Source: Lachnospiraceae bacterium | GTDB taxonomy: Bacteria; Bacillota; Clostridia; Lachnospirales; Lachnospiraceae | DNA: 64,000 nt | NCBI GenBank assembly: GCA_910575255.1 | Contig: CAJTEM010000009.1 | Location: 1 to 64,000, forward strand | Direction of reading: 5' to 3' | Shown here: piece by piece, positions 8,675 through 33,526 of the stretch | How positions within the stretch are numbered: position 1 is the stretch's first letter | How the letters are laid out: each line of letters starts with the position of its first letter | Translations under genes and position numbers: made by a program | Notes under the pieces: model-generated | Databases searched by the model: none | What the model was told of the DNA's origin: nothing | Seen by the model: the letters and a program-made list of their open reading frames with translations, nothing else

Positions 8675-9511
8675 ATGAAATTAATCGAAAGAAGCCAGCT
8701 GGCAGGAATGAATATCCATTATCGCTATTTTTCTTTTGAGTACTTTTTGGAGTCTCAGATGCAGGCAGGCTTTCAAACCATTGAGCTATGGGCAGGATCT
8801 CCTCATTTCTTTCTGAGTGATATGGAATATGCGGATTGTGTCCGCATCAGGCACATGCTTCGTGACCGGGGCCTTACGGTAAAGGTGATCACACCGGAAA
8901 ATTGCAGCGTACCTTATCAATTTGCAGCGGCGGATCCGGAGCTTTACCGCAGAAGCTTTTCCTATTTTAGGAAGGGACTGGATGCAGGGGAGGAACTGGG
9001 CTGTGAGATCATGGCTGTCCATTCAGGACGGGGTAATCTCAATGAAGACCGGGAGGAAGCCTGGAAAAGAGGCAGGGATATGCTGGCAAGACTGGCTGAC
9101 TATGCCCGGACAAAGGGAATCACCCTGGCCATGGAGTCTCTGCGCCCCCAGGAAACTAATCTGGCTGTGACCTTAAAGGATGTCAAACGCATGTTTGATG
9201 AGATCAGCCATCCTAATTTTAAGGCTATGATCGATACCTGCGCCATGGGCGTATCCGGAGAAAATCCGGAGCAGTGGTTTCAGGCGATGGGCGCCGGGAA
9301 TATTATTCATATGCATTTTGTGGACGGCCTCCCTTATGGCCATCTGATCTGGGGCGACGGGCGTCATGACCTTGCTTCCTGGCTGAATATCCTGAAAAAA
9401 TATCACTACCATGGTCTGCTGAGCCAGGAGATTACGGCTCTTGATTATTGCTATGAACCAGCCAAGGCAGATCAACGGAATTACCAGATGTTTGTTCCTT
9501 ATATGAACTAA
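8675..9511 (+). CDS. FrlC-like sugar phosphate isomerase/epimerase
   Basis: A 278-residue AP-endonuclease-2-type TIM barrel protein. FrlC interconverts fructoselysine and psicoselysine. The start at 8675 is preferred because AAAGGTGG lies upstream. Family marks are GFQTIELWAGSPHF near the N-terminus, VITPENCSVPY in place of the usual ICFTPEQ..YP, GEELGCEIMAVHSG, and the metal-binding series AMESL, KAMIDTCAM, IIHMHFVDG and LSQEI. Three other FrlC-like genes lie in this window. It heads a plus-strand run with a HAD phosphatase, a PfkB kinase, a GntR regulator and an ABC importer. The exact substrate is not determined. Confidence 0.75.
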   Translation: MKLIERSQLAGMNIHYRYFSFEYFLESQMQAGFQTIELWAGSPHFFLSDMEYADCVRIRHMLRDRGLTVKVITPENCSVPYQFAAADPELYRRSFSYFRKGLDAGEELGCEIMAVHSGRGNLNEDREEAWKRGRDMLARLADYARTKGITLAMESLRPQETNLAVTLKDVKRMFDEISHPNFKAMIDTCAMGVSGENPEQWFQAMGAGNIIHMHFVDGLPYGHLIWGDGRHDLASWLNILKKYHYHGLLSQEITALDYCYEPAKADQRNYQMFVPYMN

Positions 9512-9539
9512 ACCAGCATGCTGACATTCGGGAGGTTTT

Positions 9540-10325
9540 ATGATAAAAGCAGTTATTTTTGATATGGATGGCTTGATGTTTGACACAGAGCATCTCACAA
9601 GCGATGCCTGGATACAGATCGGAATCCGCCACGGGATCCCCATCACGGAAGCCCTGCTGCACCCTATGCGGGGTCTTCCACTTGAGGGATGCATCCGCAT
9701 TTTTAAAGAAAAACTGGGGGATGATTTTGATTACTGGGGCTTGCGCAAGGAACGGGTGGCCTATGTAGACCAATGGATTCAGGAAAACGGCATGCCGGTT
9801 AAGCCCGGGCTGACGGAACTGCTGGAATGGCTGAAAGAGCATGGATACAGGATTGCCCTGGCCACCTCCACCCACCAGAGTCTTGCCGACCACTTTCTCG
9901 ATATCGCGAAGGTCAGCCCCTATTTTACCTGCAGGGTCTACGGGAACATGATAAAGCAGGGGAAACCGGCACCGGATATTTTTCTTCACACAGCCAATAT
10001 GCTTGGCAATCCTCCAGAGGAATGTCTGGTTCTGGAGGATTCCTATGCCGGAGTCGAAGCCGGATGGCGGGCCGGCATGACCGTGATCATGGTTCCCGAT
10101 ATGCTTCCTGCAACCGAAAGAGAATATGCAAGGATCGCCATGTGTGTTCCAAGCCTGAGTGAGGTAATCCCCTATTTGACCAGTCAGACAGATCCTCCAG
10201 GCTTGTCCCTAGTACAGCCTTGCCTAAATTCCGGTGAATCAATTACCCGCTATCAGCGCCCTCTGCACGCCTGCGAAGCTAGACGTAGGCACCACTACGC
10301 CGTCGCTTCGCAGACGCACAGATGA
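9540..10325 (+). CDS. HAD-family phosphatase / beta-phosphoglucomutase-like, 3' end altered by a palindrome
   Basis: A 261-residue HAD hydrolase preceded by GGGAGG. Motif I is FDMDGLMFD; motif II is LATSTH; motif III is KPAPDIF; and motif IV is VLEDSYAGVEAG. All are intact, so the catalytic core (about 215 residues) should be active as a sugar-phosphate phosphatase or mutase. The last 35-40 residues are unlike the family and are encoded within a long palindrome that begins at about 10209, so the natural C-terminus has been overwritten. It lies 28 bases after the epimerase gene and is likely co-transcribed. Confidence 0.8.
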   Translation: MIKAVIFDMDGLMFDTEHLTSDAWIQIGIRHGIPITEALLHPMRGLPLEGCIRIFKEKLGDDFDYWGLRKERVAYVDQWIQENGMPVKPGLTELLEWLKEHGYRIALATSTHQSLADHFLDIAKVSPYFTCRVYGNMIKQGKPAPDIFLHTANMLGNPPEECLVLEDSYAGVEAGWRAGMTVIMVPDMLPATEREYARIAMCVPSLSEVIPYLTSQTDPPGLSLVQPCLNSGESITRYQRPLHACEARRRHHYAVASQTHR

Positions 10326-10375
10326 CACCGATATCAAGCAATTGATTCACCGAAATTTAAGCAATGCTGTACTAG
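10209..10375. repeat. 167-bp palindromic element inserted in a gene 3' end
   Basis: The left arm begins CTAGTACAGC and continues through TTCCGGTGAATCAATT. The right arm is its inverse complement with few mismatches, ending GCTGTACTAG. Inner arms TGCGAAGC/GCTTCGCA extend the stem nearly to the centre. It has no coding capacity of its own. This is the structure of a MITE-like or REP-like element. I see no second copy in the window. Confidence 0.7.
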
Positions 10376-10679
10376 CATGAAGTCCGTTACCTTTGGGGCT
10401 TCACACTGTTCCGATCCATCCTGAACAAGCGCCGCTGGTGCTTATTTAGGAGCATTGCCCACAGGAATACTCGCAGTTACTGTTCACACCCAATGTCAGT
10501 AACTACTCGCAAGAATAAAAAAGTCCATATTGACAAGACGTTGCATAATGTTATATATTGTATTCTATGGAAAACATTCTTTAATTTCCAATATTTTCTA
10601 TCAATGACAACAAACACAAGGATAAACAACCTCACAGCCAGCTGTCGCAGCTTCTGTGAGCCATTTGGGAGGTAGCGCC
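10376..10679. promoter_or_regulatory. Regulatory gap with promoter before the PfkB kinase
   Basis: TTGACA (10530-10535) and TATATT (10554-10559) with an 18-base spacer form a promoter. The adjacent TTATATATTGTATTC resembles the motif found at other promoters in this locus. A short phrase near 10484-10510 (TTACTGTTCACACCCAATGT) matches the outer end of the large palindrome family seen at 34.6 and 52.3 kb. Confidence 0.5.
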
Positions 10680-11546
10680 ATGAAAGAAGCACGAATTATC
10701 GCAATCGGAGACAATGTTGTGGACAAATATCTGTCCAGGGGAAAGATGTACCCGGGAGGCCAGTGCCTGAACACCTGTGTCTATTCCCAGATGAATGGGG
10801 GAACACCTGCCTATCTGGGAAAGTTCGGGGATGACGGGGTAGCCAGATACAACTGTTCCATTTTAGATCAGCTGGGAATCGATTACAGCCATTCCCGTCA
10901 TTTCCATGGAGAGAATGGAGCTGCCATGGTAACTTTGCGGGACGGTGACCGGGTGTTTTTAGGCTCCAACCGGGGCGGCGTGGCAAAGGAACATCTTTTC
11001 AGCTTTACAGAAGAGGATATGAATTATATCGGGGAATTCGATATCATTTATTCCAATACCAACAGTTATATTCTGAATGACCTGCCGCTCTTGCATAGTA
11101 CCGGTGTGCCGATTGCCTTTGATCTGTCTGTGGACTGGGATACGGATCTCTTGAATGCGGTATGCCCCCATATCCAGATCGCGCTGCTCTCCTGTGCCCA
11201 CTTAAGTGATCTGGAGAGAGAAAAAGAGATGCGGCGGGTAGCGGACTACGGAGTGACATTGGTCATCGGCACTGTGGGAGAGGCCGGCTCCTATGCCCTG
11301 TATGAAGGGGAAATGATCTATGTGGAAGCCTGCCGTGCTGAGGATGTAATGGACACCATGGGAGCCGGAGATTCTTATTTTGCCACCCTTCTCACCACTC
11401 TTTTGCAGGACGACGCTCCTCTGTTTGAAACCAATCACGCAAAGATGCGGATGCGTCTGCTCCGCGCCATGAACCGCGGGGCTGAATTCGCCGCTAAGGT
11501 ATGTTCTATGGAGGGAGCATTCGGATACGGGACAGATATTATCTGA
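10680..11546 (+). CDS. PfkB-family kinase (FrlD-like)
   Basis: A 288-residue ribokinase-type sugar kinase. The start at 10680 follows GGGAGG. The N-terminal AIGDNVVDKYLSRGKMYPGGQCLN matches the FrlD/PfkB substrate-binding motif, and DTMGAGDSYFATLL is the second PfkB signature with the catalytic Asp in GAGD. By family analogy it phosphorylates C6 of a fructosamine or related sugar before cleavage by an SIS deglycase. It is one of three such kinases in the window; this one and the one ending at 29799 share the GDNV.D and YPGG..LN patterns, while the third is more divergent. Confidence 0.75.
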   Translation: MKEARIIAIGDNVVDKYLSRGKMYPGGQCLNTCVYSQMNGGTPAYLGKFGDDGVARYNCSILDQLGIDYSHSRHFHGENGAAMVTLRDGDRVFLGSNRGGVAKEHLFSFTEEDMNYIGEFDIIYSNTNSYILNDLPLLHSTGVPIAFDLSVDWDTDLLNAVCPHIQIALLSCAHLSDLEREKEMRRVADYGVTLVIGTVGEAGSYALYEGEMIYVEACRAEDVMDTMGAGDSYFATLLTTLLQDDAPLFETNHAKMRMRLLRAMNRGAEFAAKVCSMEGAFGYGTDII

Positions 11547-11606
11547 TTCCAATCTCTTTCGATTGAATGATAGCAACAGATATTTCTGTGATTTTCCCTG
11601 GAATCC

Positions 11607-11635
11607 TTGCACAATTCTGGTTTTAATGGTATTAT
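11607..11635 (+). promoter_or_regulatory. Promoter of GntR gene
   Basis: TTGCAC (11607-11612) and TATTAT (11630-11635) are separated by 17 bases and lie about 55 bases upstream of the regulator start. Confidence 0.5.
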
Positions 11636-11688
11636 TACATTATAAGATTATTAAAAATGACTACAAAATCCGGATTGTGAGGTAATTT

Positions 11689-12405
11689 ATGGTTAAAAAT
11701 TCAATCATTCCTCTGTATCAGCAACTTTCAGATGAGATCAAAGAACAGATACTTTTAGGAAAGCTAAAAGCCGGAGACCGCCTGATGACGGAGGCTGAAC
11801 TCAGCCAACAATATGAGGTAAGCCGAATTACAGTACGAAAAGCGATCGAACTGCTGGTTGACGAAGGCTACGTATTGCGCAAGCAGGGAATCGGTACCTT
11901 TATCGCGGAAAAGAAGCTGCGCCGGGTGGTTGATTCCGAGAATCTGGTGCGCAGCTTTTCTGAGACCAGCCGTATGAGCGGACAGGAACCCTCCTCGGAA
12001 CTCCTTTCCGTGGAATGGATTTTGCCAGATGCTTCCATCCAGCATCATCTTCATATCGGTGAGGATGAAAAAGTATTAAAGATTGTCCGCCTGCGCAAAA
12101 TCGACGGAGTTCCCGTGATGGTGGAAACCAACCACTATCCGCAGAAAATGGATTTTCTCCTCCAGTCAAACCTGACCGGCTCTACCTATGAAGTATTTCG
12201 CCAACATGAGCTGGTACCCTCCCATGCCGTCAGGACTGTCGAAATCTGCTACGCAACCGAAGAAGAAGCCCGGCTTTTAGGAGTGGAAGAGAATCAGCCC
12301 TTGCTTCTGCAGACAGAAGAGACCACGGATCAGAATCACCAGGTTCTGCACTACAGTAAGGTTGTGGTTAATTCCCAGCGCTACCGGCTGACTATCGTCT
12401 CTTAG
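11689..12405 (+). CDS. GntR/HutC-family regulator with UTRA domain
   Basis: A 238-residue protein. Residues 1-70 are the GntR winged helix (PLYQQLSDEIKEQILLGKL, then SRITVRKAIELLVDEGYV, then KQGIGTFI). Residues about 90-236 are a UTRA ligand-binding domain with the typical end HYSKVVVNSQRYRL. HutC-type regulators of frl loci respond to the phosphorylated substrate. It stands between the kinase and the ABC importer and is the likely repressor of at least one of the repeated A/T-rich operators nearby. A terminator follows. Confidence 0.85.
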   Translation: MVKNSIIPLYQQLSDEIKEQILLGKLKAGDRLMTEAELSQQYEVSRITVRKAIELLVDEGYVLRKQGIGTFIAEKKLRRVVDSENLVRSFSETSRMSGQEPSSELLSVEWILPDASIQHHLHIGEDEKVLKIVRLRKIDGVPVMVETNHYPQKMDFLLQSNLTGSTYEVFRQHELVPSHAVRTVEICYATEEEARLLGVEENQPLLLQTEETTDQNHQVLHYSKVVVNSQRYRLTIVS

Positions 12406-12458
12406 CCAAATCCCCAGAAGCCATTTTTCCAGTTCAACCCGCTGCTGCTTATTGCTGA

Positions 12459-12516: not shown

Positions 12517-12660
12517 AAAATAACTTACAGGCCAATGCAGGTTTTATTGATTTTTTTAATTTTTATCTCTCTGATATCCGCCAAATGCAGCACATTTTTT
12601 TACAGATAGGAAACTTGAAAAAACAATTGGTGAAAGTCACAAATTTTTCTAAAAAAACAG

Positions 12661-12716
12661 TTGCAATATATATAACATCATGATACAATATGTTCCAAGA
12701 TGTTATGTGTTGTATC
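12661..12716 (+). promoter_or_regulatory. Promoter and operator of the first ABC importer
   Basis: TTGCAA (12661-12666) and TACAAT (12684-12689) are spaced by 17 bases. A dyad GATACAA...TTGTATC (12682-12716) overlaps the -10 box and is the best operator candidate for a GntR/UTRA repressor. Related TTGTAT/ATACAA half-sites occur at other promoters of this locus. Confidence 0.6.
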
Positions 12717-12768: not shown

Positions 12769-14136
12769 ATGAAAAAGAACCTGAAGAAAACACTGAGTGT
12801 CGGTCTTGCAGCCATGATGACACTGAGCCTGGCTGCCTGCGGCGGCGGCTCCTCAGATGCCCCGGCAGACACAACAGCAGCACAGAGCGAAGCAGCAGGG
12901 GTTGCAGCTCCGGAGGCCAAGCCTGAAGCTGCTGCCAGCGGGGATGTTAAGACAATCAAGCTGTTCCATCGCTTCCCGGATGATCCGTGCAATGCTTTTA
13001 TCGAGAAAAAGATTGCTGAGTACGAGGCTGAGCATCCGGACATCAAGTTCGAGGTGACCAGCGCACAGAATCAGCCCTACAAAGAGAAGATCAAGGTTGT
13101 AGTCGGATCTGATGAATGCCCGGACATCTTCTTCAGCTTCTGCGGTGAGTTCTCCGAGCGCTTCATCCGTGAAGGCCTGCTCATGGATCTGACCCCCTAT
13201 CTGGAAGCGGATCCGGAATGGAAGGCCAGCCTGATGGAGACCCAGATGAACGAGTACACTACTGCCGACGGCATGGTATACGGAATTCCCTTCCGTCTGG
13301 ATGCCAAGGAATTCTTCTACAATGTAGATATGTTCAACGATCTGGGACTGAAGGCCCCTGAGACCTGGGATGATTTCATTAAGGTGCTGGATACGATCCA
13401 GGCATCCGGTGTTGTGCCGATTGCCGAAGGCAATCAGGATAAGTGGCCGGGCGCTCATTACTTGGGTGCACTGAACGAGCAGTGTGTTCCGGATGATGTA
13501 AGAGCCAAAGACTACGATCCCAAGACCGGAGAGTTTACCGATGCCGGTTATGTGGAAGCCTTCAAATATTATCAGCAGCTGGTTCCCTACATGAATATGG
13601 GCGTTAATGGCATGACCCATGATATGGCTCGCCTGGGCTTCACTCAAGGACAGAATGCAATCCTGTTTGCAGAGCTGGTAGAGATCACCAACATTAAGCA
13701 GGAGAATCCGGATCTGAACTGGGGCATGTTCAAGTTCCCCACCATCCCGGGCGCAAAGGGTAATCCTGACCTGGTATCCGGTGCTCCGGAAGGCTTTGCC
13801 GTCTCCTCCAAGACCGCTTATCCGGACGAGTGTGTGGAATTCTTAAAGTGGTTCTTAGGCGCTGAGACCGGTGCACAGCAGGCCGCTGAGGTTGGCTGGT
13901 TCAATGCTTCCCTGGGCGTGGATGAGGGCCTGACCGATCCGTCCCTGATCAGCGCTTATGAGGTAATTGCCAATGCCAAGAAGATGGATATCTGGTTTGA
14001 CAATGCCCTGTATTCCACGGTATGTGACGAATATCTGACCCAGATCTCTGACATCACCAACGGAGATGTGACGCCAGAGGAAGCCATGGCAAAGATCCAG
14101 AAAGTGGCTGCCGAAGCTCAGAGCCTGGCTCAGTAA
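12769..14136 (+). CDS. ABC importer solute-binding lipoprotein (family 1)
   Basis: A 455-residue protein. The signal peptide ends in LAAC with the lipidated Cys at 24, followed by a Gly/Ser and Ala/Thr linker. The mature domain has the family-1 pattern (IKLFHRFPDD, DIFFSFCGEFSE, DGMVYGIPFRLDAKEFFYNVDMF). It would capture a sugar or glycated compound outside the cell and deliver it to the two permeases downstream. AGGAGAGG precedes the start. A hairpin-rich 290-base gap separates it from the permeases, as is usual where the binding protein is made in excess. Confidence 0.85.
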   Translation: MKKNLKKTLSVGLAAMMTLSLAACGGGSSDAPADTTAAQSEAAGVAAPEAKPEAAASGDVKTIKLFHRFPDDPCNAFIEKKIAEYEAEHPDIKFEVTSAQNQPYKEKIKVVVGSDECPDIFFSFCGEFSERFIREGLLMDLTPYLEADPEWKASLMETQMNEYTTADGMVYGIPFRLDAKEFFYNVDMFNDLGLKAPETWDDFIKVLDTIQASGVVPIAEGNQDKWPGAHYLGALNEQCVPDDVRAKDYDPKTGEFTDAGYVEAFKYYQQLVPYMNMGVNGMTHDMARLGFTQGQNAILFAELVEITNIKQENPDLNWGMFKFPTIPGAKGNPDLVSGAPEGFAVSSKTAYPDECVEFLKWFLGAETGAQQAAEVGWFNASLGVDEGLTDPSLISAYEVIANAKKMDIWFDNALYSTVCDEYLTQISDITNGDVTPEEAMAKIQKVAAEAQSLAQ

Positions 14137-14429
14137 GTCAACAACCCCGCACAAGCAGTCAAATGCCTCTCTGCAAGCAACGGGGTATTTGACCCTCGCG
14201 GCATTCGCCATATGCTCGTGCAGGCACGGCACTTGGCTCATTGCCCGCGGAAATAAATTGGGGCTGTCATGAAATAATCTCTGAAGTTTAAAACTTAAAC
14301 ATCTGTTTCATGATAGGTCTTAATCATGGAAACCATGGCAGGGAGCAGGGCACTGCTCCCTGTCTTTACCAAAAGCCGCAGGTGCATGACGCGGTTCCCT
14401 GCGGCCCTCATCAAAAAGGTGGTGTCAAC
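14137..14429. repeat. Repeat family C copy plus hairpins between binding protein and permeases
   Basis: 14143-14257 is a copy of a repeat also found at 29498-29628. The shared core runs from GGGGTATTTGACC through GGCATTCGCCA and TGCTCGTGCAGGCACGGCAC to CGCGGAAATAAA. A hairpin CATGAAA...TTTCATG lies at about 14268-14313, and GGGAGCA/TGCTCCC with a T-rich tail at about 14340-14365. These probably attenuate transcription from the binding-protein gene into the permeases. Confidence 0.6.
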
Positions 14430-15311
14430 ATGAAAAAGAAAACGAATTTAGCGCCATATTTATACATCATCCCAGGGCTTATCATGGTGCTCGGCCTGGT
14501 TTATATCCCGGTTATTGTAAATCTGATATACAGCTTTTTCCGCCTGTCGTCCTACTCTTCTTCTATGAAGTTTGTCGCCTTTGACAACTACCGCCGGTTA
14601 TTTACCAGCGATACCTTCCCGATCATGATCCGAAACAACATTTACTATTGTATCATTTCCCTGATCGTACAGGTAGGCTTTGGTACTTTCCTGGCACTGC
14701 TTTTGGAGAGTAAGCTGGCTGGCGAAAGGTTCAAAACCATCTGCCGCAATATTTACTTTATTCCTTCCCTGGTATCTCTGACTGCTGTAGGCCTGATGTT
14801 CAACTTTATCTACAATCCTCAGCTTGGTATGCTGAACACCCTGTTAAAGAATATCGGCATGGCCGATCTTCAGCAAACCTGGCTGGGAGACAAGAATCTG
14901 GCAATCTTCTGCATTATTGCCATGAGCCAGTGGCAGTTCACTGGTTACATCACCCTTCTCATGGTAGTTGCTTTCCAGAATGTGCCTAATGACTATGTGG
15001 AAGCCGCGATCATCGACGGTGCCGGCCCGGTGAAACGTGCCTTAAGCATCATCCTTCCATTAGCTAAAGAACAGCTTCTGGTCTGTACTATCATTACCGT
15101 AATCGGTGCCTTCAAGCTTTTCACAGAGGTGTACTCCACCACAGTCGGAGGCCCCGGAAACTCCTCTCAGGTATTAGGCCTCTTCCTGTATCAGAATGCA
15201 TTTTTACATGATGACATGGGTATGGCTGCCGCAACCGGTGTTCTGATCTTTGTCATTACCGTGACGGCATCCATCTTCCAGTTAAAGATCAGCCGTTCCG
15301 GCGAAGTGTAA
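14430..15311 (+). CDS. ABC sugar permease (MalF-type)
   Basis: A 293-residue inner-membrane protein with six predicted helices, started at 14430 after AAAGGTGG. The cytoplasmic EAA loop is EAAIIDGAGPVKRALSIILPL, which docks with the ATPase. It pairs with the next gene to form the channel. No ATPase gene is present in this operon, as is common for CUT1 systems that share a general MsmK/MsiK ATPase. Confidence 0.85.
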   Translation: MKKKTNLAPYLYIIPGLIMVLGLVYIPVIVNLIYSFFRLSSYSSSMKFVAFDNYRRLFTSDTFPIMIRNNIYYCIISLIVQVGFGTFLALLLESKLAGERFKTICRNIYFIPSLVSLTAVGLMFNFIYNPQLGMLNTLLKNIGMADLQQTWLGDKNLAIFCIIAMSQWQFTGYITLLMVVAFQNVPNDYVEAAIIDGAGPVKRALSIILPLAKEQLLVCTIITVIGAFKLFTEVYSTTVGGPGNSSQVLGLFLYQNAFLHDDMGMAAATGVLIFVITVTASIFQLKISRSGEV

Positions 15312-15322
15312 GGAGGTTCCCT

Positions 15323-16165
15323 ATGAGTACTGAAAAATATGTCCTGAGAACCCGGATTTTAAAGATTCTGCTTTATGTATTCCTGTTGATTCTGGTGGCA
15401 GTCATCCTCTTTCCGGTATGCTGGCTGGTCCTGAACTCCTTAAAGACCAATCAGGAGATGTTCCTGAATTCCCTGTCGCTTCCGAAAAAATGGATGTTTG
15501 AAAACTATGTGACAGCCTGGAATAAAGGACTGGTCTCTTACTTCGCCAACTCCATCATTGTAGGTGTCCTTTCCATTGGTATCATCCTGGCACTGAGTTC
15601 CATGATGGCCTACGGCCTGACAAGGTTCAATCTGCCGGGCAGCGGCTTCCTCTTCATCCTGGTCTTAGGCGGCATGGCCTTGTCCGAGCAGGTAGCCCTG
15701 GTTCCGCTGTACAAGATTCTGCAGGCCGTAAAGCTTTACAATACCCGTGCCGCGCTGGTACTGCCCTATGTGGCCTTCCGGATTCCTTTTACCATGTTTT
15801 TGATGCGCTCCTACTTCATCTCCATTCCCAAGGAGCTGGAAGAAGCTGCTATTGTGGACGGATGTAAGAGCTGGCAACGCTTCACCAAGATTATTCTTCC
15901 CATCAGTAAACCAGTGCTGGCTTCCTGTGCGATCGTTAATCTGAACCATGTGTGGAATGAATTTTTATTTGCCAATGTATTTTTGGAGAACAAGAAGCTG
16001 ATGACCATCCCGCTGGGGCTGATGACCTTCCAGGGCGATCTGAAGTCAGATTACGTGGTAATGCTGTCCGGCATCCTGATCTGCTCACTGCCGATGGTAA
16101 TCCTGTTCTTATGCATGTCCAGACAGTTTGTGCGGGGCCTGACCTCCGGGGCTGTGAAGGGCTGA
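15323..16165 (+). CDS. ABC sugar permease (MalG-type)
   Basis: A 280-residue inner-membrane protein 11 bases after its partner, with GGAGG upstream. It has the EAA loop EEAAIVDGCKSWQRFTKIILP and the usual MalG C-terminus (QFVRGLTSGAVKG). It is the last gene of the importer operon and is followed by a terminator. Confidence 0.85.
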   Translation: MSTEKYVLRTRILKILLYVFLLILVAVILFPVCWLVLNSLKTNQEMFLNSLSLPKKWMFENYVTAWNKGLVSYFANSIIVGVLSIGIILALSSMMAYGLTRFNLPGSGFLFILVLGGMALSEQVALVPLYKILQAVKLYNTRAALVLPYVAFRIPFTMFLMRSYFISIPKELEEAAIVDGCKSWQRFTKIILPISKPVLASCAIVNLNHVWNEFLFANVFLENKKLMTIPLGLMTFQGDLKSDYVVMLSGILICSLPMVILFLCMSRQFVRGLTSGAVKG

Positions 16166-17899: not shown

Positions 17900-17937
17900 T
17901 TTTTTATCCTCCTGACTTGCTATAAATGTTTGATTAC

Positions 17938-17966
17938 ATTATATAACATCATATGATATCTGTCAA
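17938..17966 (-). promoter_or_regulatory. Consensus sigma-A promoter of the SIS gene
   Basis: On the minus strand TTGACA (17961-17966) and TATAAT (17938-17943) are separated by exactly 17 bases. The spacer ATATCATATGATGTTA is palindromic at its centre and close to other A/T operator motifs of the locus. A perfect-consensus promoter implies that expression is held down by a repressor. Confidence 0.8.
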
Positions 17967-25833: not shown

Positions 25834-25868
25834 GCAGTGTCAGGCCCCCTTACCCATCATTCTTCTCC

Positions 25869-25913
25869 TTAAGATGCTGCAGCTTTTGCCAGGCAACGGC
25901 TGCAGCATCTTAA
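25869..25913 (-). terminator. Attenuator hairpin between binding protein and permeases
   Basis: TTAAGATGCTGCAGC pairs perfectly with GCTGCAGCATCTTAA. There is no long T-run, so it probably stabilises the upstream message or partly terminates, raising binding-protein levels relative to permeases. Confidence 0.6.
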
Positions 25914-25927
25914 AGCTTATCCTTTCA

Positions 25928-27250
25928 TCACTTTCCCAGCGCTTCGTCAATAATTCTCTGACCTTCCTTACAAGCCTCCTCCGGAGTCTGCTTCAGCGTC
26001 AATGCATTCTGCAATGCGGTCTGATAGCCCACGGAGATCTCCGGCCACTTGGGCGTTACGTCACGGGCTCTTGTATAAGGAATCTGCTCAATAAATGCCG
26101 GCCAGTACTCTGCCTCTGTATAGTTTGGATCGGTAAGAACCTTTTCCATAGCCGGGAATTCATCTGTGTTTAAGTTCCACTCAGAGTTCTTCTCATAATC
26201 CAGGAACCAGGACATGAACTTAAATGCCTCGTCCACATTCTTTCCCTTAACAATTGCCAGGTTCTCTCCGCCGTAAACATTAGCCTTTACCTGATCGCTG
26301 GGAAGGGGAACCACATCCCAGTTAAATCCTTCCGGTGCATTGTTCTTCATCCACTGAATCCGCCAGCAGCCCATTACCATGGAAGCCACCTGGCCATTGA
26401 TAAACTGGGTGGGAATATCTCCCTGGGTCCAGTTCACCACATCCTTGGGCATAGAGCCATCTTTAATCATATCGGTAAACATGGTAAGAGTTCTTACTCC
26501 AGCCTCACTGTCAAGCTGCATGGAATCGCCGCCTGCTGACCAGAAGAAGGGGATAAACTGAGAGGTTCCCTCCTCGGACGGATGAGCGCAGAATGAGAAG
26601 CCATAGTGATCGGAGGTGGTCATTGCCTTGGCAAATTCCTTTAGCTCCTCAAAATTGGTGGGAGGCTCCACTCCCGCTTCCTTTGCCATGTCCACATTGT
26701 AGTACAGTCCCAGACAGTTGGACTCAGCAGGAAGCGCATAGATCTTTCCTTCATAGGTACAGGTAGCCATGATCTGATCATAGTAGTCATTAAACTGGGG
26801 GAACTGAGCCACCCGATCTGTGATATCCTCAAAAATACCCATAGCGGAATATGCGGAACAGTCACAGTTGTCAATGAACACCAGATCCGGCAGGCTGTCT
26901 GCCACAGCGCTCATGGAAAGCTGCTTTTTGAAATCGGCAAAGGGCAAAACTGTAACCTTCACAACAGCTGTGTCACACTGAGCATTGTACTCATCCACAA
27001 ACTTCTGAAATTCCAGCTGAATGCTCTCGGTTCCGAAATAGTGCCATACATTGATTTCCTGCTTGCCCTCACTCCCTGCTGCCGGATCTGCCGATGCTGC
27101 AGGTGCTTCGGATACAGCAGTGGCGGCTCCGCCTCCTGCCGCTGTTGTGGCTGTGGTCTGGCTTCCGCCGCCGCAGCCAGCTAACATACCGGTAACTACT
27201 GCCCCCAGAGCTGCCAACGTTGTCAATCGTCTTGTGCTGCTTTTTCTCAT
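25928..27250 (-). CDS. ABC importer solute-binding lipoprotein (family 1)
   Basis: A 440-residue protein started at 27250 after AAGGAGGAG. The signal peptide ends LAGC with the lipidated Cys at 26, then a Gly/Thr/Ala linker. The mature part shows INVWHYFGTESIQLEFQKFV, DLVFIDNCDCSAY, YALPAESNCLGLYYNVDMAK and a C-terminal EACKEGQRIIDEAL. It delivers substrate to the two permeases below. It lies between an FrlC-like gene and the permeases, tying the importer to fructosamine metabolism. Confidence 0.85.
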   Translation of the reverse strand: MRKSSTRRLTTLAALGAVVTGMLAGCGGGSQTTATTAAGGGAATAVSEAPAASADPAAGSEGKQEINVWHYFGTESIQLEFQKFVDEYNAQCDTAVVKVTVLPFADFKKQLSMSAVADSLPDLVFIDNCDCSAYSAMGIFEDITDRVAQFPQFNDYYDQIMATCTYEGKIYALPAESNCLGLYYNVDMAKEAGVEPPTNFEELKEFAKAMTTSDHYGFSFCAHPSEEGTSQFIPFFWSAGGDSMQLDSEAGVRTLTMFTDMIKDGSMPKDVVNWTQGDIPTQFINGQVASMVMGCWRIQWMKNNAPEGFNWDVVPLPSDQVKANVYGGENLAIVKGKNVDEAFKFMSWFLDYEKNSEWNLNTDEFPAMEKVLTDPNYTEAEYWPAFIEQIPYTRARDVTPKWPEISVGYQTALQNALTLKQTPEEACKEGQRIIDEALGK

Positions 27251-27300: not shown

Positions 27301-28194
27301 TTAAATACATGCGGCTACATAATCAAATGCCTCCCTGGCATATTTGTGAGCCTCCAGAAAATATGCTCTCTGACATATCTCAATGGTAATAAAGCCATCA
27401 TATTTTTCATCGGCTAACTGTTCTAAGTACTGTCCCAAAGGTACATTCCCTTCCCGAAAGCCGATATGCCCTGTTACTTTTCTGCCTTTTTGCAGGCGCT
27501 TTGTCCCTTGCCTCTCGTACCACGTCCGCTCTTGTACGAATGTATTGCCCAAATGTATATGGCGAATCATCCCGGCACCTAATACCTTAAAATTCCCCTT
27601 AATATCCTGGTCAAACTGAGCCAGCTGCACTGTGTCTAACATTGCCTTAACATTGGGATGCCCCACATCCTGCAGCATCCGCTTCTGATCCTCCACAGAA
27701 TTCATAAACAAAGATTCCTCCTGAGACTGTGTTTCAAGCATCAGGCACACTCCACAGTCAGCGGCTGTCCCTGCCAGTTCCGTAATAGAATGACGGCACC
27801 GATCCCAGATCTCATCCTCCGGTTCATCCACATATCCGTTGCCGGGACAGAGAAGCATCTGTTTTGTCCCCAGCCATGAAGTGATCTGGATAGCCTGCTT
27901 CATATGCTCAATGCTTCTCCTTCGTATGGCTTCATTGGCAGTACTGATATCTACTGGATATGTATTCTGCTCCGGACAAAAGCAGATCAGGCTTAACCCT
28001 TTTTCCTCTATTTGTTTCCGAAATTCCCCGACACTTTCCCGGTTCTGGTCATCCACACAAAAATGCGGCTTTGCCCCCCATAATTCAATATTTTCCACAC
28101 CGATCTTTTTTACAGAATCGAGAAAATATTCAAACGACCAGGATACATAATGATAATTGCCAATGGCAATCTGGGATTGTTGAATCGTTCCCAT
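27301..28194 (-). CDS. FrlC-like sugar phosphate isomerase/epimerase
   Basis: A 297-residue TIM barrel protein with GGGGGAGG upstream. Marks are ENIELWGAKPHFCVDD, LICFCPEQNTYPVDIST, LMLETQSQEESLF, KAMLDTVQLAQF, IRHIHLGNTF and ITIEICQRAYF. It is longer than its relatives because of an insertion with many basic residues (YERQGTKRLQKGRKVTG) between the HIHLGN and HIGFREG elements. It is the first gene of the long minus-strand operon. Confidence 0.78.
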   Translation of the reverse strand: MGTIQQSQIAIGNYHYVSWSFEYFLDSVKKIGVENIELWGAKPHFCVDDQNRESVGEFRKQIEEKGLSLICFCPEQNTYPVDISTANEAIRRRSIEHMKQAIQITSWLGTKQMLLCPGNGYVDEPEDEIWDRCRHSITELAGTAADCGVCLMLETQSQEESLFMNSVEDQKRMLQDVGHPNVKAMLDTVQLAQFDQDIKGNFKVLGAGMIRHIHLGNTFVQERTWYERQGTKRLQKGRKVTGHIGFREGNVPLGQYLEQLADEKYDGFITIEICQRAYFLEAHKYAREAFDYVAACI

Positions 28195-28563
28195 AATTTC
28201 CTCCCCCTTTACTTCTGTTATAGGATTTTCATGATGTTTCCGTCCCGATTTACTCTTAGAATGTTTTGTATTATTGTTTGGTTATATATTGTATTATTTC
28301 TTATTGATACATAGTATATCATATTTGTGAAAAATTGCAACATCTTTTTTTATTTTTTTGCTTTTATATGTATTTTTTTACAAAAATCATGTTTTTATTA
28401 TTCAAAAAATTATGTTTTTCAAGTATTCACTGGATTAATTGCTCGAGATTTTTAGATATTATTATTTTTATATACATAATTATAGAATTTTTATAGAACA
28501 AATCATGATATATGTAATCAAAAAAGCGGCGAAACGCTTCGCCGCAATCATTAAGCATAACAT
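28195..28563. promoter_or_regulatory. Promoter region of the long operon, and the terminator of the GntR gene
   Basis: On the minus strand TTGCAA (28335-28340) and TATACT (28313-28318), 16 bases apart, drive the operon starting at 28194. Downstream of it (28280-28310), TTATATATTGTATTA and TGATACAT are locus-type operator motifs. At 28526-28545 GCGGCGAA/TTCGCCGC followed on the minus strand by a T-run terminates the regulator gene. The A/T-rich stretch 28341-28520 shows no gene. Confidence 0.65.
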
Positions 28564-28683: not shown

Positions 28684-28720
28684 GCGTACCTCCCGAATCA
28701 CAAAAGCTTGCGTTTACCGT
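28684..28720. repeat. 37-bp repeat forming the 3' end of the GntR gene
   Basis: The sequence beginning GCGTACCTCCCG and ending TTGCGTTTACCGT is nearly identical to 34822-34858, which forms the 3' end of an unrelated AAA+ gene. Here it encodes the tail GKRKLL plus the stop codon. Confidence 0.65.
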
Positions 28721-29459
28721 CTCCCTCCCCCAGCATCATATTATTAGTCAGAACCTTATATTGGTACCGATCCGCATTGATCACCTGTCTCCCGCAATAA
28801 ACCGGATCGCCGGACATATCATATGCCGCATCCTTGGCCAATATCAGAGCATCGTGCTCCTTTATCTTCAGATACTCTGCCTCCTCACGAGTCGCATAGC
28901 AGACACCAATTGTCAGGCTGCCATTTCTCACGGTAATTCCATGCTCATGGAGAATCTGATGCAAGGACCTGGTCAAGTCCTCTGCCAGAAGATATGCATA
29001 TTTTTTTGGAAATCGGGTTTCCTCCACAATTACCGGAACCTCATTACAATACCGAAGGCGCCGGATCCGAATCACTTTATCCTCGTCCTCCAGTCTCAGA
29101 ATTTTGATGTCTGAAGGTTTGGCCTTTACCAGCTCAGCTGACAAAAACTGGGTTCCTGGCTGATTTCCCTCTAATTCGCAGCTTTCAGAAAACCCCATAT
29201 AGCTGTTAAGGCTTCTGGAAATCTTTTTGTCTGAGACAAAAGTCCCTACTCTCTGCCGGCGAACTAAAATCCCCTCATCCACTAAAAGCTCCAATGCTTT
29301 ACGGATCGTAATCCTGCTGACACCGTAATCACTGCTCAGTTCCAGCTCTGTGGGAATCCTTGTATTGGGCTGGATTTCCCCTCGCTCAATTTTAGATTTG
29401 ATATCCCCGGCAATCTGGATATACAGAGGAACTACCGTGTCCCGCATTACTTCTGACAT
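28698..29459 (-). CDS. GntR/HutC-family regulator with UTRA domain
   Basis: A 253-residue regulator started at 29459, where GGAAGG lies about 5 bases upstream. A start 18 bases earlier is possible. The winged helix covers residues 1-75 (SRITIRKALELLVDEGILVRR, then GTFV) and the UTRA domain the rest, ending near VINADRYQYKVL. It is a close paralogue of the regulator at 30798, sharing NTRIPTE.ELS, SRSLNS.MGFS and IGVCYATREEAE. The last residues are encoded by an inserted 37-bp repeat. It lies next to the operon it probably controls. Confidence 0.85.
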   Translation of the reverse strand: MSEVMRDTVVPLYIQIAGDIKSKIERGEIQPNTRIPTELELSSDYGVSRITIRKALELLVDEGILVRRQRVGTFVSDKKISRSLNSYMGFSESCELEGNQPGTQFLSAELVKAKPSDIKILRLEDEDKVIRIRRLRYCNEVPVIVEETRFPKKYAYLLAEDLTRSLHQILHEHGITVRNGSLTIGVCYATREEAEYLKIKEHDALILAKDAAYDMSGDPVYCGRQVINADRYQYKVLTNNMMLGEGDGKRKLL

Positions 29460-29798
29460 ACATACCTTCCTTTCCAAAGCAAGCAGTTCTTAATAAGCCA
29501 AATACCCCGCTGCAAGCAACGGGGCATCCGATTTGCAACGCAGCAAGCTGCGGGGTATTTGACCCCCGTGGCATTCGCCAAATGCTCGTGCAGGCACGGC
29601 ACCTGGCTCATTGCTCGCGGAAATAAAAGATCGGCCAGCAATGCACTGTTTACTTAATATTACAATCATATCATACAGACAGAATTTTCGCCATGCAAAC
29701 TGTCAAATATTTCCATTTTCTGCTGCCGGACAAATACTATCCAAATGCCTTTCCCGGAACGCACGCAGCTCCTGTTCTTCCATTGCGTCCCTTTCCGC
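29460..29798. repeat. Gap holding a copy of repeat family C
   Basis: 29498-29628 contains CAAATACCCCGC/GCGGGGTATTTG arms and then the core shared with 14183-14257. The rest of the gap (29629-29798) shows no gene or clear promoter. Confidence 0.6.
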
Positions 29799-30698
29799 TC
29801 ATCCCTGTACCACCTGTTTTCCATGCCCGAAGGATCCGTCTCTCTGACACTGACAGGAAGAAAATACAGCCGCCCGGTAAAGGCTCACACGAATCAGCGC
29901 ATCCTTATACCCCTCTGCCGTGACGAGCCCCCTCCCACCAGATTTTTCCGGAAAATCCACTGCCATAGATATCCCATCCAGATAATTCACCAAAAAGCTG
30001 GCAATAAAAGAATCACCGGCTCCCATGGTATCCTTCGCCTTCACCAGACAGGGAGACTGTTCATAGAAACTTCCATCCGCCAGCACATATGCTCCCTTGC
30101 TTCCTCTTGTGGCGATCACCATATGTTTACATCCAAACTTCATGATCTGGTCCATGACCTGACGGATCTCCCTCTCATCCATATCACCGCAGGAAATCTC
30201 CCCACAGTCAATATACGGACAGCAGCGTCTCAAATAGTCCTCGTCATACCGGTCAGAAAAATCCATGGATACAAATTTCCCAACCCTTCTTATCTTGGGA
30301 AGTTCCGGCTCCATATGGCTGAAAATACTGGTATGTATCAGGTCAAACCCGGAGATATATGCCTCGTCAAGCTTGCTCAGAACCGGCGGCTTCGCCCCGG
30401 CGATCCCCCCTTGATTCCCTGGAAGAAAAACCCGGTCTCCATCCACCAGCTGTACCCGTGCACAGCCATTTTCCCCTTCCTCCATCCTGCAGTGAGAGAT
30501 ATCGATTCCCAGCTCTCTGATAACCGAATATACATGACGGCCGATTTCATCATCTCCAAAAGTTCCCAGATAGGCAGCCTCTGCTCCCAGAAATCCCCCA
30601 AAGACTGCAACATTCAAAGCGTTTCCGCCTGGATAAATCATCCCTGTGTGGAGATAATGATCACACACATTATCCCCAATCCCCAATACCCGAATCAT
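29799..30698 (-). CDS. FrlD-like PfkB kinase
   Basis: A 299-residue kinase started at 30698 after GGAGGGT. The opening VLGIGDNVCDHYLHTGMIYPGGNALNVAVFG (residues 3-33) is very close to the FrlD substrate-binding region, GENGCARVQLVDGDRVFL is a second conserved block, and DTMGAGDSFIASFL is the kinase signature with the catalytic Asp. The C-terminus is longer than the usual 261 residues by about 35, rich in Gly, Gln and Cys, and may be extended by read-through. It lies between two GntR regulators on the same strand. Confidence 0.75.
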   Translation of the reverse strand: MIRVLGIGDNVCDHYLHTGMIYPGGNALNVAVFGGFLGAEAAYLGTFGDDEIGRHVYSVIRELGIDISHCRMEEGENGCARVQLVDGDRVFLPGNQGGIAGAKPPVLSKLDEAYISGFDLIHTSIFSHMEPELPKIRRVGKFVSMDFSDRYDEDYLRRCCPYIDCGEISCGDMDEREIRQVMDQIMKFGCKHMVIATRGSKGAYVLADGSFYEQSPCLVKAKDTMGAGDSFIASFLVNYLDGISMAVDFPEKSGGRGLVTAEGYKDALIRVSLYRAAVFSSCQCQRDGSFGHGKQVVQG

Positions 30699-30797
30699 AG
30701 TACCCTCCATTCTGTAAAATAAGCCTGCCTGGTATTTTATTCCCAGGCAGGCATTGGCCAGCCGCAGTTCAGCTGCCCTCTCTGTAACCAGCAATCT

Positions 30798-31535
30798 TCA
30801 CGCTTCCTTCCAGACACTGTTTGCCAATATTCTGTACTCATACCGATCTGCATTGATAGTCTCCTTACCACTGTACACCGGCTCCCCTGCTGTATTATAG
30901 ACAACATCCCTCGACACGATCAATGCATCCTTTTCTTTGATTTCCAGCCATTCTGCCTCTTCCCGTGTGGCATAGCAAACCCCTATGGTCTTTGTCCCAT
31001 TGCCCAGGACAATACCATGATTCTGCAAAAGCTGATGCAAAGATATACTCAAATCCTCTGCCAGAAGCCAGGCATACTCTTTGGGAAAATGATTCTCCTC
31101 TAAAATCACCGGCAGATCATCACAGTACCTCAGACGCCGAATCCGGATGGCCATATCTTCCTCCTGAAGCTTTAATGCCTCTCTGTGCATGACGGCCGCC
31201 CTGACCAGCTCTGCTGATAAAAGCCGGGTACCCGGGCGATGTCCTGCCACCTCGCAGGTCTGGGAAAAACCCATAAAGCTGTTTAAGCTTCTGGATAGTT
31301 TCTTATCCGATATAAATATCCCAATCTGCTGCTTCCGAACCAGAATTTCCTCATCCACCAATATTTCCAGTGCCTTTCGAACAGTAATTCTGCTCACTCC
31401 ATAGCGAGTGCTCAGCTCCATTTCTGTGGGAATCCTGGTATTAGGGAGAAGCTCTCCTTTGCCAATCCTGGACTTAATATCCTCGGCAATCCGGATATAA
31501 AGGGGACTTGTCCTGTCCCGTGTCACTTCTGCCAT
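30798..31535 (-). CDS. GntR/HutC-family regulator with UTRA domain
   Basis: A 245-residue regulator. The winged helix shows PLYIRIAEDIKSRIGKGEL and SRITVRKALEILVDEEILVRK; the UTRA domain ends INADRYEYRILANS. It is paralogous to the regulator at 28698 and more distant from that at 11689. It begins 54 bases after the SIS gene stop and 99 bases before the kinase, so it is probably part of the YitT-SIS-GntR-kinase transcript. Confidence 0.85.
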   Translation of the reverse strand: MAEVTRDRTSPLYIRIAEDIKSRIGKGELLPNTRIPTEMELSTRYGVSRITVRKALEILVDEEILVRKQQIGIFISDKKLSRSLNSFMGFSQTCEVAGHRPGTRLLSAELVRAAVMHREALKLQEEDMAIRIRRLRYCDDLPVILEENHFPKEYAWLLAEDLSISLHQLLQNHGIVLGNGTKTIGVCYATREEAEWLEIKEKDALIVSRDVVYNTAGEPVYSGKETINADRYEYRILANSVWKEA

Positions 31536-31589
31536 ATCATCCTTCCCTGGAAATCATCCGGCACTTCCAGATCCTGTGCCTGAAATCCA

Positions 31590-32585
31590 TTAATAGTCCA
31601 GTCTCCGATAATATCTGCGAATCGCCAGAGGATGCCTGCGGCAATGCTCCAGATGTACATTTACCCTCTGGAACGCAGAACGCATCACAATGGGAGCCAG
31701 CATTCCCCGGAATTCATCGCTGATTCCCTTAAGCTTAAAGTTCTTTGTGTCAAATACCGTCACCTTGGCGCTGATGGTATTAACAAATTTCTCCACCCGC
31801 TCCATCTGGGGTCTTGTCATATCCTCACCCTTGATCAAGATAACCGGAATATCTCTCTCAATCACTTCCAGGGTCCCATGGAAGAAGTTAGCCGCAGAAA
31901 TCGGTCTTGTGCGCATCCACTGCATCTCCTCCATAATGCACATTCCATAACAGGTGGCCCAGTCCTCCAAATTGCCAGAACCTACCAGATAGGTGATTGG
32001 CTCATCGCAATACTTTTCTGCATAAGCTCTTGCATCCTCATCTGCATCCTTATAGATCTGCACCACATTGTCCGGCATATGGACAATCTCCTTAAAGAAC
32101 TGGTCATATTTTTCAAACTGCCCTGCATTTTTCAGGAAACGGAGTGTTACGGTGTACCAGAAATAATAGCCTCCACCTACAGTTGTTACCAGATAATCGC
32201 TCTTCTCATACAGAGGAGTCCCCTCTTTCTCCACATACCCGATCACTCTGGCTCCTGCAGCGTGGGCCTTGTCCACTGCCTCCACCACTTCCCTGGTATC
32301 TCCGGAAATCGATTCAATCACCACAACAGATTTCTCATCAAAAAAGGGATTGCCCACCAGATTAAAATCCGCAGCATTCTCTATATAGAGAGGAAGTTTT
32401 GAACCCAGCTGTTTGGCAATATGCATCATCTGATTGGCATACAACACGGTTCCGCCGATTCCAATGTAAAAAATACCGGAATAGCCATCCTTACATACCT
32501 GATCTACATGCTTCTCCACCTGATGGATAATATCCACCCCGTTCTGATGCTCCTGTCTGATTTTTGCCTCATCAAAGTTAAACAT
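31590..32585 (-). CDS. FrlB-like SIS-domain deglycase
   Basis: A 331-residue two-SIS protein with AAAGGAGG upstream. It has GIFYIGIGGTVLYANQMMH, the loop ESISGDTREV, ISAANFFHGTLEVIE (catalytic-type Glu/His region) and the end RRYYRRLDY, closest of the three to the E. coli FrlB end RRYYGGLVEY. It follows YitT by 59 bases and precedes a GntR regulator and a kinase, making a compact deglycase/kinase/regulator set. Confidence 0.75.
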   Translation of the reverse strand: MFNFDEAKIRQEHQNGVDIIHQVEKHVDQVCKDGYSGIFYIGIGGTVLYANQMMHIAKQLGSKLPLYIENAADFNLVGNPFFDEKSVVVIESISGDTREVVEAVDKAHAAGARVIGYVEKEGTPLYEKSDYLVTTVGGGYYFWYTVTLRFLKNAGQFEKYDQFFKEIVHMPDNVVQIYKDADEDARAYAEKYCDEPITYLVGSGNLEDWATCYGMCIMEEMQWMRTRPISAANFFHGTLEVIERDIPVILIKGEDMTRPQMERVEKFVNTISAKVTVFDTKNFKLKGISDEFRGMLAPIVMRSAFQRVNVHLEHCRRHPLAIRRYYRRLDY

Positions 32586-32644
32586 GTCTTTCTTTTCCTC
32601 CTTTTATCAATTATACTCCCGGAGTTTCTCCCGTACTTCTGTCT

Positions 32645-33526
32645 TCAAACCTCCAGGCGTTTCTCAAAATTCCCCAGAATCATGTCCGGAGACATGATCT
32701 GTACAAAAGCATTGGGGTCTTCCTGGCGAATAAGCTTTTTCAATGCTTGCAGCTCATATTTATTGACCACCACCATATGCATCACCTCTTCTGAATGACT
32801 GTACTCTCCCCAGGCATTCCAGCTGGTAACTCCTCTTGATATACCCCGGTTGATTTTTTCTCCAAGTTCCCGATTCTTTGTGACAATAAACACCGATACC
32901 TTAATGTTCTGAAAGTGAATCCGATCCACCATAATCCCTGCCACAAAGGAAAAAACCATGGAGTAAGCCGCCACCTCGATATCATACCGCACTGCTGCGA
33001 TCACGTAAATACACAGATTCATCATCACGCTCAGTCTGCCAACCCCGAATTCGGGGTAATGCTTGGCACAGTACATTCCCACAATATCCGTTCCGCCACC
33101 GGATCCTCCTGCCCGCAGGGTAATCCCCACTCCCCATCCGGAGAGCGCGCCACCAATAATACAATTCAGCAAGATATCATCCAGCAGAGGTTCCTTCGGC
33201 GCCGGGATTGTTGTCAGCAAAAAGGATTGAATGCAGACTGCAATAATAGTCCGGTACAAAAATTTTTTCCCAATGCTTTTGTATCCTAAAACAAACAAAG
33301 GGACATTAATACACCAGAATATCATTCCTGTAACATCAATGCTTTCCGGCATGGGAATATGTAATATCTCTGTGAGAAGCAGCTTGATCAGCTGGGAAAT
33401 TCCTGTAAACCCTCCGCTGTAAAGCCCTTCCGGAACCAGAAACCACCGATAAGCTATGGCAAAAAATACAACGCCCACGATGGCCCAAAGCATATTATAG
33501 GTCTCTTTTTGTATCTGTTTACTCAT
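32645..33526 (-). CDS. YitT/DUF161 family membrane protein
   Basis: A 293-residue protein started at 33526. Five to six hydrophobic helices fill residues 10-200 (FAIAYRWFLVPEGLYSGGFTG is the family opening, LRAGGSGGGTDIVGMY a conserved loop), followed by a soluble DUF2179 domain (SVFIVTKN, ISRGVTSWNAWGEYS, VNKYELQALKKLI). The family is widespread in Firmicutes and its transported substrate, if any, is unknown. Position at the head of an SIS/kinase operon suggests a link with uptake or efflux of the substrate. Confidence 0.8.
   Translation of the reverse strand: MSKQIQKETYNMLWAIVGVVFFAIAYRWFLVPEGLYSGGFTGISQLIKLLLTEILHIPMPESIDVTGMIFWCINVPLFVLGYKSIGKKFLYRTIIAVCIQSFLLTTIPAPKEPLLDDILLNCIIGGALSGWGVGITLRAGGSGGGTDIVGMYCAKHYPEFGVGRLSVMMNLCIYVIAAVRYDIEVAAYSMVFSFVAGIMVDRIHFQNIKVSVFIVTKNRELGEKINRGISRGVTSWNAWGEYSHSEEVMHMVVVNKYELQALKKLIRQEDPNAFVQIMSPDMILGNFEKRLEV

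Follow-up and report, generated by a model that had tools for sequence, protein, structure and literature searches.

The stretch of DNA considered here, termed the window, comprises 64,000 nucleotides of a Lachnospiraceae bacterium (assembly GCA_910575255.1, contig CAJTEM010000009.1, positions 1 to 64,000). Its segment 8675..33526 is probably a composite island for the catabolism of glycated amino acids, i.e. fructosamines and related ketoamines, as judged from protein families and their phylogeny. Heating of food yields glycated amino acids, on which certain gut bacteria can live. Between 8675 and 32585, the island harbors four FrlC-like TIM barrels, three FrlB-like SIS proteins, three FrlD-like PfkB kinases, three GntR/UTRA regulators, and two ATP-binding cassette (ABC) importers of the CUT1 type without ATPase. 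Its newest element is a pair of genes, AmdH2 and YjbQ, usually accompanied by a PfkB2-type kinase and an FrlB-type SIS gene. The gene counts and coordinates of a first-pass annotation agreed with Pfam and NCBIfam scans of 20 genes; the other three of the segment's 23 genes, all permeases, were assigned via translations and phmmer. Genes beyond that annotation's list encode a HAD phosphatase, YjbQ (UPF0047), an Amidohydro_2 protein (AmdH2), and a YitT membrane protein.

Putative Deglycases

SIS1 (16931..17899), SIS2 (20905..21879), and SIS3 (31590..32585), all on the minus strand, are supported as members of the fructosamine-6-phosphate deglycase family. The first-pass annotation had left room for profile searches placing the SIS, PfkB, or TIM-barrel genes in unrelated sugar pathways; the top NCBIfam family was FrlB for all three SIS proteins, FrlD for all three kinases, and FrlC for all four TIM barrels. 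SIS1, SIS2, and SIS3 reach 71, 47, and 82 bits on the FrlB profile versus a curated cut-off of 430, which may simply be narrow. Best PDB matches are 9otj, 3fkj, and 3eua for SIS1, 9otj (255 bits) for SIS2, and 2a3n (210 bits) for SIS3, which belongs to the Salmonella 2a3n/8glr group.

In a tree of 82 rows, the three proteins fall into separate, well-supported clades. SIS1 lies in a clade of 20 rows (100/100), SIS2 in one of 10 rows (100/100) together with SIS proteins from phosphotransferase system (PTS) loci of Collinsella, Enterococcus, and Lactobacillus, and SIS3 in a clade of 13 rows (100/100), which is part of a 23-row group that also contains Salmonella 2a3n (100/100). These clades sit among 2a3n, 3eua, 3fkj, and 9otj, of which 3eua alone is labeled a deglycase in the PDB, the other three being presumed deglycases. 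E. coli FrlB and the pTiChry5 protein form long branches, so their placement is unsure. The 9otj clade is separate from SIS1-3 and holds SIS genes of the unit-A type from two related genomes (G015 and G021), in the slot that a HAD phosphatase occupies in the window.

We take 2a3n to be Salmonella GfrF/FrlB, and 9otj is presumably FraB, since its chain residue Glu 234 would correspond to E214 of FraB once a tag of 20 residues is added. A FraB construct of 325 amino acids is mentioned in PMC9609667. Firm naming of the Salmonella GfrE and FraB clades was dropped, because the equation of 9otj with FraB depends on numbering and a K. pneumoniae proxy SIS matches 9otj at 333 bits only.

A glutamate and a histidine spaced by 16 residues are kept in SIS1 (E210/H226), SIS2 (E211/H227), SIS3 (E220/H236), and E. 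coli FrlB, and are presumably the catalytic pair. The equivalent glutamate of 9otj is chain residue 234, which is alanine in the variant 9otu; this Glu-to-Ala variant supports the catalytic role of the residue.

The first-pass annotation had described the copies as divergent, and this holds: SIS as well as PfkB copies lie in separate clades, pairs of SIS1-3 are 24-35% identical, and the two binding proteins of the importers are 27% identical. The motifs it quoted were located in TIM2 (WGAGPH), TIM3 (ACYPH), SIS1 and SIS2 (RRYMWK), and SIS3 (RRYYRR). Different substrates for the divergent copies are plausible.

Kinases and TIM Barrels

PfkB1 (10680..11546, plus strand), PfkB2 (18828..19613, minus), and PfkB3 (29799..30698, minus) are likewise supported by sequence as members of the fructosamine kinase family. 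They occupy three FrlD-type clades of a 74-row tree, with 8, 20, and 12 rows, respectively (each 100/99), and the PfkB2 clade joins the E. coli FrlD group at 95/94. On the profile NF007321, PfkB2 passes the cut-off of 247 with 249 bits; PfkB1 (168-169 bits) and PfkB3 (184 bits) fall short.

The four PF01261 TIM barrels, FrlC-related sugar epimerases or isomerases, are TIM1 (8675..9511, plus strand), the lone gene TIM2 (20002..20829, plus), TIM3 (21898..22740, minus), and TIM4 (27301..28194, minus). On NF007360 (fructoselysine 3-epimerase) they score 106, 127 (scanned from 19999), 110, and 116-120 bits, respectively, versus a curated cut-off of 305. In a 51-row tree, TIM1 clusters with the TIM1 proteins of Bacillaceae and Lachnospiraceae loci, the nearest row to TIM2 is that of locus L099, and none of the four enters the E. 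coli FrlC clade (100/100, six rows). Cut-off and tree together exclude TIM1-4 as true FrlC. Residues E154, D187, H212/H214, and E252, which we take to be the metal ligands of the epimerase family, are invariant in all five aligned TIM sequences.

Searches of the host genome (5.14 Mb, 106 contigs) set these scores apart from the background. On the FrlD profile, the island kinases reach 168-249 bits and the next-best kinase 68; on the FrlC profile, the island TIM barrels reach 106-127 bits and the next-best TIM barrel 42. This profile search of the genome thus gave no FrlC-like or FrlD-like copy of comparable score outside the island. SIS domains in general also occur elsewhere, with 15 Pfam matches in the genome; at E<=1e-40, SIS1 and SIS2 are the sole host matches of a SIS2 query.

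Gene Organization and Uptake

The genes are arranged in several runs. Unit A (plus strand) consists of TIM1-HAD, PfkB1-GntR1, and SBP1-permease-permease, with the HAD phosphatase (PF13419/PF00702) at 9540..10325, GntR1 (PF00392 and PF07702) at 11689..12405, and importer 1, whose binding protein is SBP1 (PF01547, PF00528; second permease via translation), at 12769..16165. PfkB2 and then SIS1, both on the minus strand, are 928 bp apart, and TIM2 stands isolated on the plus strand. Unit D (minus strand) runs TIM4-SBP2-permease-permease-AmdH2-YjbQ-TIM3-SIS2 with gaps of 50, 94, -4, 71, 3, 5, and 18 bp; it includes importer 2 (24101..27250; PF13416/PF01547; permeases via translation), AmdH2 (23178..24029; PF04909, 124 bits), and YjbQ (22746..23174; TIGR00149 above cut-off). 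Unit E (minus strand) runs YitT-SIS3-GntR3-PfkB3-GntR2 with gaps of 59, 54, 93, and 321 bp; GntR2 (28698..29477) is 63.7% identical to GntR3 (30798..31535; assigned by family scan). In computing these gaps, the starts of TIM2 and PfkB3 were placed 3 to 6 bases upstream of their ATG. Unit A has no SIS gene, unit D no kinase, and unit E neither a TIM barrel nor a CUT1 importer. The proposal of several complete FrlB/FrlC/FrlD sets is supported for the SIS and PfkB proteins, which belong to deglycase and kinase families. It is not supported for FrlC, as no TIM barrel enters the FrlC clade or passes the FrlC cut-off, and the units are untidy.

Uptake by ABC importers relying on a distant ATPase, as the first-pass annotation assumed, is supported. 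Both CUT1 sets comprise a binding protein and two permeases without an ATPase of their own, as in FrlONM-type importers, and two candidate ATPases of the UgpC/MsmX type, above the curated NF008653 cut-off, are encoded on other contigs of the genome. FrlONM of B. subtilis is described as energized by FrlP or MsmX (PMC12632257), and a further precedent for ABC uptake is given for Intestinimonas (PMC4697335). Also in line with the earlier statement that no amino-acid-type permease is present, E. coli FrlA had no tblastn match in the window at E<=1e-3; nor had four subunits of a PTS encoded on an E. faecium plasmid at the same threshold. The YitT-family protein (PF02588; 32645..33526, minus strand), encoded directly upstream of SIS3, is possibly a transporter of the pathway.

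A Shared 17-bp Element

A 17-bp element, ATGTTATATATTGTATT, emerged from a comparison of intergenic regions within the window. Tested on this very window, it occurs five times with at most three mismatches in 64 kb (0.19 expected; none of 100 shuffles reached five). All five sites are upstream of island genes, namely TIM1 (8593..8609, plus strand), PfkB1 (10548..10564, plus), SBP1 (12700..12716, plus), SIS1 (17933..17949, minus), and TIM4 (28279..28295, plus), and represent candidate operator/promoter elements. A sixth, weaker site (15.5 bits) is found between PfkB2 and TIM2. A matrix built from the five sites was run on 16 related loci, among which L048 and L061 share a contig and L046 and L047 a genome. 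Best sites at or just upstream of SIS1, SBP1, TIM1, or PfkB1 were found in L055, L056, L057, L059, L060, L061/L048, L050, L064, L046, and L067, the SBP1 site of L061/L048 falling slightly inside the called open reading frame. L099 has a single site, at SIS1 (14.9 bits), and no site above 14 bits was seen in L047, L085, L089, or L100. Because of the homology among the relatives, their sites do not count as independent, and the core of the element is AT-rich and promoter-like. With these qualifications, it suggests a common regulator of the five units. For a second candidate, TGATACAATATGTT, the evidence is weak (13 matches versus 7.28 expected; 2 of 100 shuffles gave as many).

Related Loci and a Candidate Cassette

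Matches to SIS2 were obtained in 13 of 61 genomes searched, with three copies within 18 kb in G019 and two within about 12 kb in G004, G015, and G021. A scan of named genomes with a SIS query gave 79 loci from the best 80 matches, which is not a random sample; among the matches listed, 46 loci carry one FrlB-type SIS gene, 24 carry two, and nine carry three. The idea of a unique "supercluster" was dropped, because 33 of these 79 loci, again among the matches listed, have at least two. The statement that known frl or fra loci carry one set was likewise too strong, since the Salmonella gfr operon is reported with two deglycases (PMC12675984). The island's kinds of genes cluster in related loci, too. 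Several loci of Collinsella, Lactobacillus, and Enterococcus carry SIS2-like and SIS1-like genes around mannose-type PTS genes; a search of the open-license PMC literature for Collinsella together with fructoselysine, PTS, and transporter found nothing. YitT adjoins a same-strand FrlB-type SIS gene in eight of the 79 loci among the matches listed.

Comparison with locus L059 of an uncultured Lachnospiraceae suggests how the island may have been assembled. Counterparts of window positions 8660-17973 and 28737-38736 are adjacent there, with SIS1 abutting a single GntR gene, so the window carries an extra 10.8 kb plus one GntR gene. The segment absent from L059 (17973..28737) holds PfkB2, TIM2, SIS2, TIM3, YjbQ, AmdH2, importer 2, and TIM4. 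L099 (Clostridium sp. 1001271st1 H5) matches window positions 20223-28204 in three blocks of 74-79% nucleotide identity and has an extra PfkB3-like kinase gene between TIM3 and SIS2; the stretch compared ends inside TIM2. This pattern suggests a resident system in two parts plus a cassette of 10.8 kb, and the island probably grew by insertion of the latter between SIS1 and GntR2, though as far as L059 and L099 show, L059 may instead have lost the segment. When the cassette flanks were compared (17900-18900 versus 28150-29810), an exact 18-bp direct repeat, CAAGCTGCGGGGTATTTG, was found at 18780-18797 and 29544-29561, flanking the cassette together with GntR2. Two 13-bp inverted repeats appeared as well, and a 13-bp inverted copy lies in the second region. 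The 18-bp repeat may be an insertion end or a terminator-like element.

The AmdH2-YjbQ Pair

YjbQ of unit D is the only PF01894 match found in the host genome, and YjbQ is present in 10 of 14 control genomes. Relatives of AmdH2 occur in 9 of 392 genomes of the order at E<=1e-40 and, at E<=1e-35, in 19 of 397 genomes of the family, 5 of 391 of the class, and 3 of 398 of the phylum; these samples overlap, and the host is counted in each. The 35 AmdH2 loci compared (34 distinct, as L152 repeats L100) exclude the window and include six from other searches (L046, L063, L099, L100, L138, and L139). YjbQ adjoins AmdH2 in all 35. A PfkB2-type kinase is encoded within 9 kb in 29 of them and an FrlB-type SIS within the same distance in 28. 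In seven loci (L157, L159, L160, L161, L176, L177, and L179), PfkB2-AmdH2-YjbQ is joined to E. coli-like FrlA, FrlD, and a SIS3-like gene, with FrlC also present in six of them. In L174, hydantoinase/oxoprolinase A and B genes stand beside the PfkB2-AmdH2-YjbQ triad and a SIS gene.

Since extra C-N hydrolases recur in fructosamine loci (L174 and pTiChry5), we favor the view that AmdH2 acts on the substrate as an amide, lactam, or lactone. The active site argues against such a role. The aspartate after strand 8 (GSDxP), which we take to be catalytic in metal-dependent amidohydrolases, is missing in 35 of 36 AmdH2 sequences (Asn 28, Gly 4, Ala 2, Ser 1, Asp 1); the metal-type histidines are mostly kept (29-31 of 36). 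The aspartate is absent in BB4693, too. Its absence as a trait specific to AmdH2 was excluded, given that the three other Amidohydro_2 proteins of the genome also lack it. YjbQ is listed as of unknown function in PMC7954711, and a search of the open-license PMC literature found, among the papers listed, no report linking YjbQ or an AmdH2-type amidohydrolase to fructosamines.

Proposed Pathway and Alternative Explanations

According to the model favored here, the two importers, with an ATPase encoded elsewhere, would take up glycated amino acids, and the FrlC-related TIM barrels would convert some epimers ahead of phosphorylation. Each PfkB kinase would then phosphorylate a ketoamine, and cleavage of the product by the matching SIS deglycase would release hexose 6-phosphate along with the amino acid in free form. 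A possible task of the HAD phosphatase is to counter accumulation of the phosphorylated intermediate, and the GntR/UTRA proteins would act as regulators. Either ahead of PfkB2 or following it, AmdH2-YjbQ would handle a further substrate form, such as a lactone, a cyclic amide, or a different sugar epimer.

Several observations weigh against this model. All SIS proteins, all TIM barrels, and two of the three kinases score under the curated cut-offs, and no TIM barrel belongs to the FrlC clade. The glutamate of the EFFHG motif is replaced by asparagine in SIS3, as it is in 10 of the 11 relatives that were aligned. Among the 82 SIS rows, the motif carries E+H in 60, N+H in 13 (as many rows as the SIS3 clade has), D+H in five, and E with Asn for His in one, and three do not match the pattern; SIS3 chemistry may therefore differ. 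L131, a member of the SIS2 clade, has asparagine in place of the catalytic histidine. Finally, no FrlB-type SIS lies within 9 kb in seven of the 35 AmdH2 loci (L153, L158, L162, L164, L165, L166, and L180). In L164 (9893-16295), genes for a LacI regulator, a glycyl radical enzyme, and a radical-SAM protein (Pfam) come after AmdH2-YjbQ, and the gene lengths in L165 are the same. Fructosamines are therefore not the only context of the pair.

These SIS-less loci, together with the position of the TIM barrels, speak for a pathway of sugar phosphates or amino sugars unrelated to Amadori products in part of the island, above all in the cassette with TIM2-4, YjbQ, and AmdH2. Such an assignment is improbable, as FrlB-type SIS2 belongs to a series of eight genes whose spacing does not exceed 94 bp and 28 of the 35 AmdH2-YjbQ loci do have an FrlB-type SIS within 9 kb. 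Equally improbable is that PfkB2, AmdH2, and YjbQ provide a second, SIS-independent route for breaking down a phosphorylated ketoamine. The triad does occur without a nearby FrlB-type SIS in L153, L158, L162, L166, and L180, and yjbQ and php are among seven E. coli genes whose overexpression is reported to relieve a pdxB defect (PMC7954711); yet in L153 and L166 the contig begins less than 3 kb from the pair, so a SIS gene may lie beyond, and the 28 loci with a SIS gene count against it here, too. A related proposal, that PfkB2-AmdH2-YjbQ is a separate, undescribed module in which PfkB2 would phosphorylate a glycated or cyclized amino acid and the Asp-less AmdH2 and YjbQ would convert it by non-SIS chemistry, is unlikely as well, though a little less so.

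Somewhat more credit, albeit still in the range of the doubtful, is due to partial redundancy, in which the three sets would act on the same few compounds, e.g. fructoselysine, and the copies would reflect gene gain. Set content varies within a genus, as gain and loss would produce, and a Salmonella gfrF mutant showed residual growth on fructoselysine, for which relaxed GfrE specificity or an alternative deglycase was suggested (PMC12675984). The low identity of the SIS pairs and of the binding proteins argues against redundancy, as does the persistence of the three SIS clades across several families, with L099 and L100 each keeping all three.

Relation to Known Systems

The E. coli frlABCDR locus shares enzyme and regulator families with the island and differs by its amino-acid-type permease FrlA, a separate FrlC clade, and a single set. 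Salmonella fra, for fructose-asparagine, combines a SIS deglycase and a PfkB kinase, and the best solved relative of SIS1 and SIS2 is 9otj, the inferred FraB, although neither lies inside the 9otj clade. The fra locus carries a DcuC-type transporter and an asparaginase; neither was found among the 20 island genes scanned. In gfrABCDEF (fructoselysine/glucoselysine), the SIS protein 2a3n, presumably GfrF/FrlB, groups with SIS3. That locus resembles the island in its two SIS deglycases, whereas it is described with uptake and phosphorylation by a mannose-type PTS (PMC12675984), for which the window gave no match. B. subtilis frlBONMD with frlP/msmX is similar in its FrlB-type deglycase, FrlD-type kinase, CUT1-type importer using the distant MsmX, and repressor (PMC12632257). 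It differs in having one set and a second ATPase of its own, FrlP, and the terms "frlC" and "epimerase" do not appear in the main text of that article (PMC12632257).

Two plasmids come close to parts of the island. Plasmid 2 of Enterococcus faecium DO (NC_017962, L138, 6082-14136) harbors AmdH2-YjbQ, an annotated frlD, a SIS gene, and two GntR genes. It has one set only, and its transporter is annotated as an amino acid permease, where the island has ABC importers. This locus lies near transposase and resistance genes. Agrobacterium pTiChry5 combines a SIS gene, an annotated fructoselysine 6-kinase, an ABC importer, and an extra C-N hydrolase (hydantoinase/oxoprolinase); the hydrolase is a different one, and the importer has its own ATPase.

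Other Genes of the Window

Outside the island, translations inspected by eye indicate an RpiR-type regulator (containing a SIS match), a PTS beta-glucoside permease, and a 6-phospho-beta-glucosidase at 38950-43349. An HpcH/HpaI-like aldolase beside a TRAP-type large permease is present in two copies (43286-45711 and 59518-61726), and the gene at 48313-49296 encodes a secreted CAP-domain-like protein containing consecutive KPEIPD-type repeats.

Biological Meaning

The island represents a richer, probably cassette-built variant of known fructosamine loci and not a new kind of system. A Lachnospiraceae lineage holds three deglycase types at one locus, which apparently arose in part by cassette insertion and is apparently controlled in part through a single regulatory motif. 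For substrate assignment, the three SIS clades and the four types of epimerase provide a panel. The most interesting part is the unexplained association of AmdH2, YjbQ, and PfkB2, which offers a testable context for YjbQ. Should the non-SIS module exist, the widespread UPF0047/YjbQ family would gain a class of physiological substrates.

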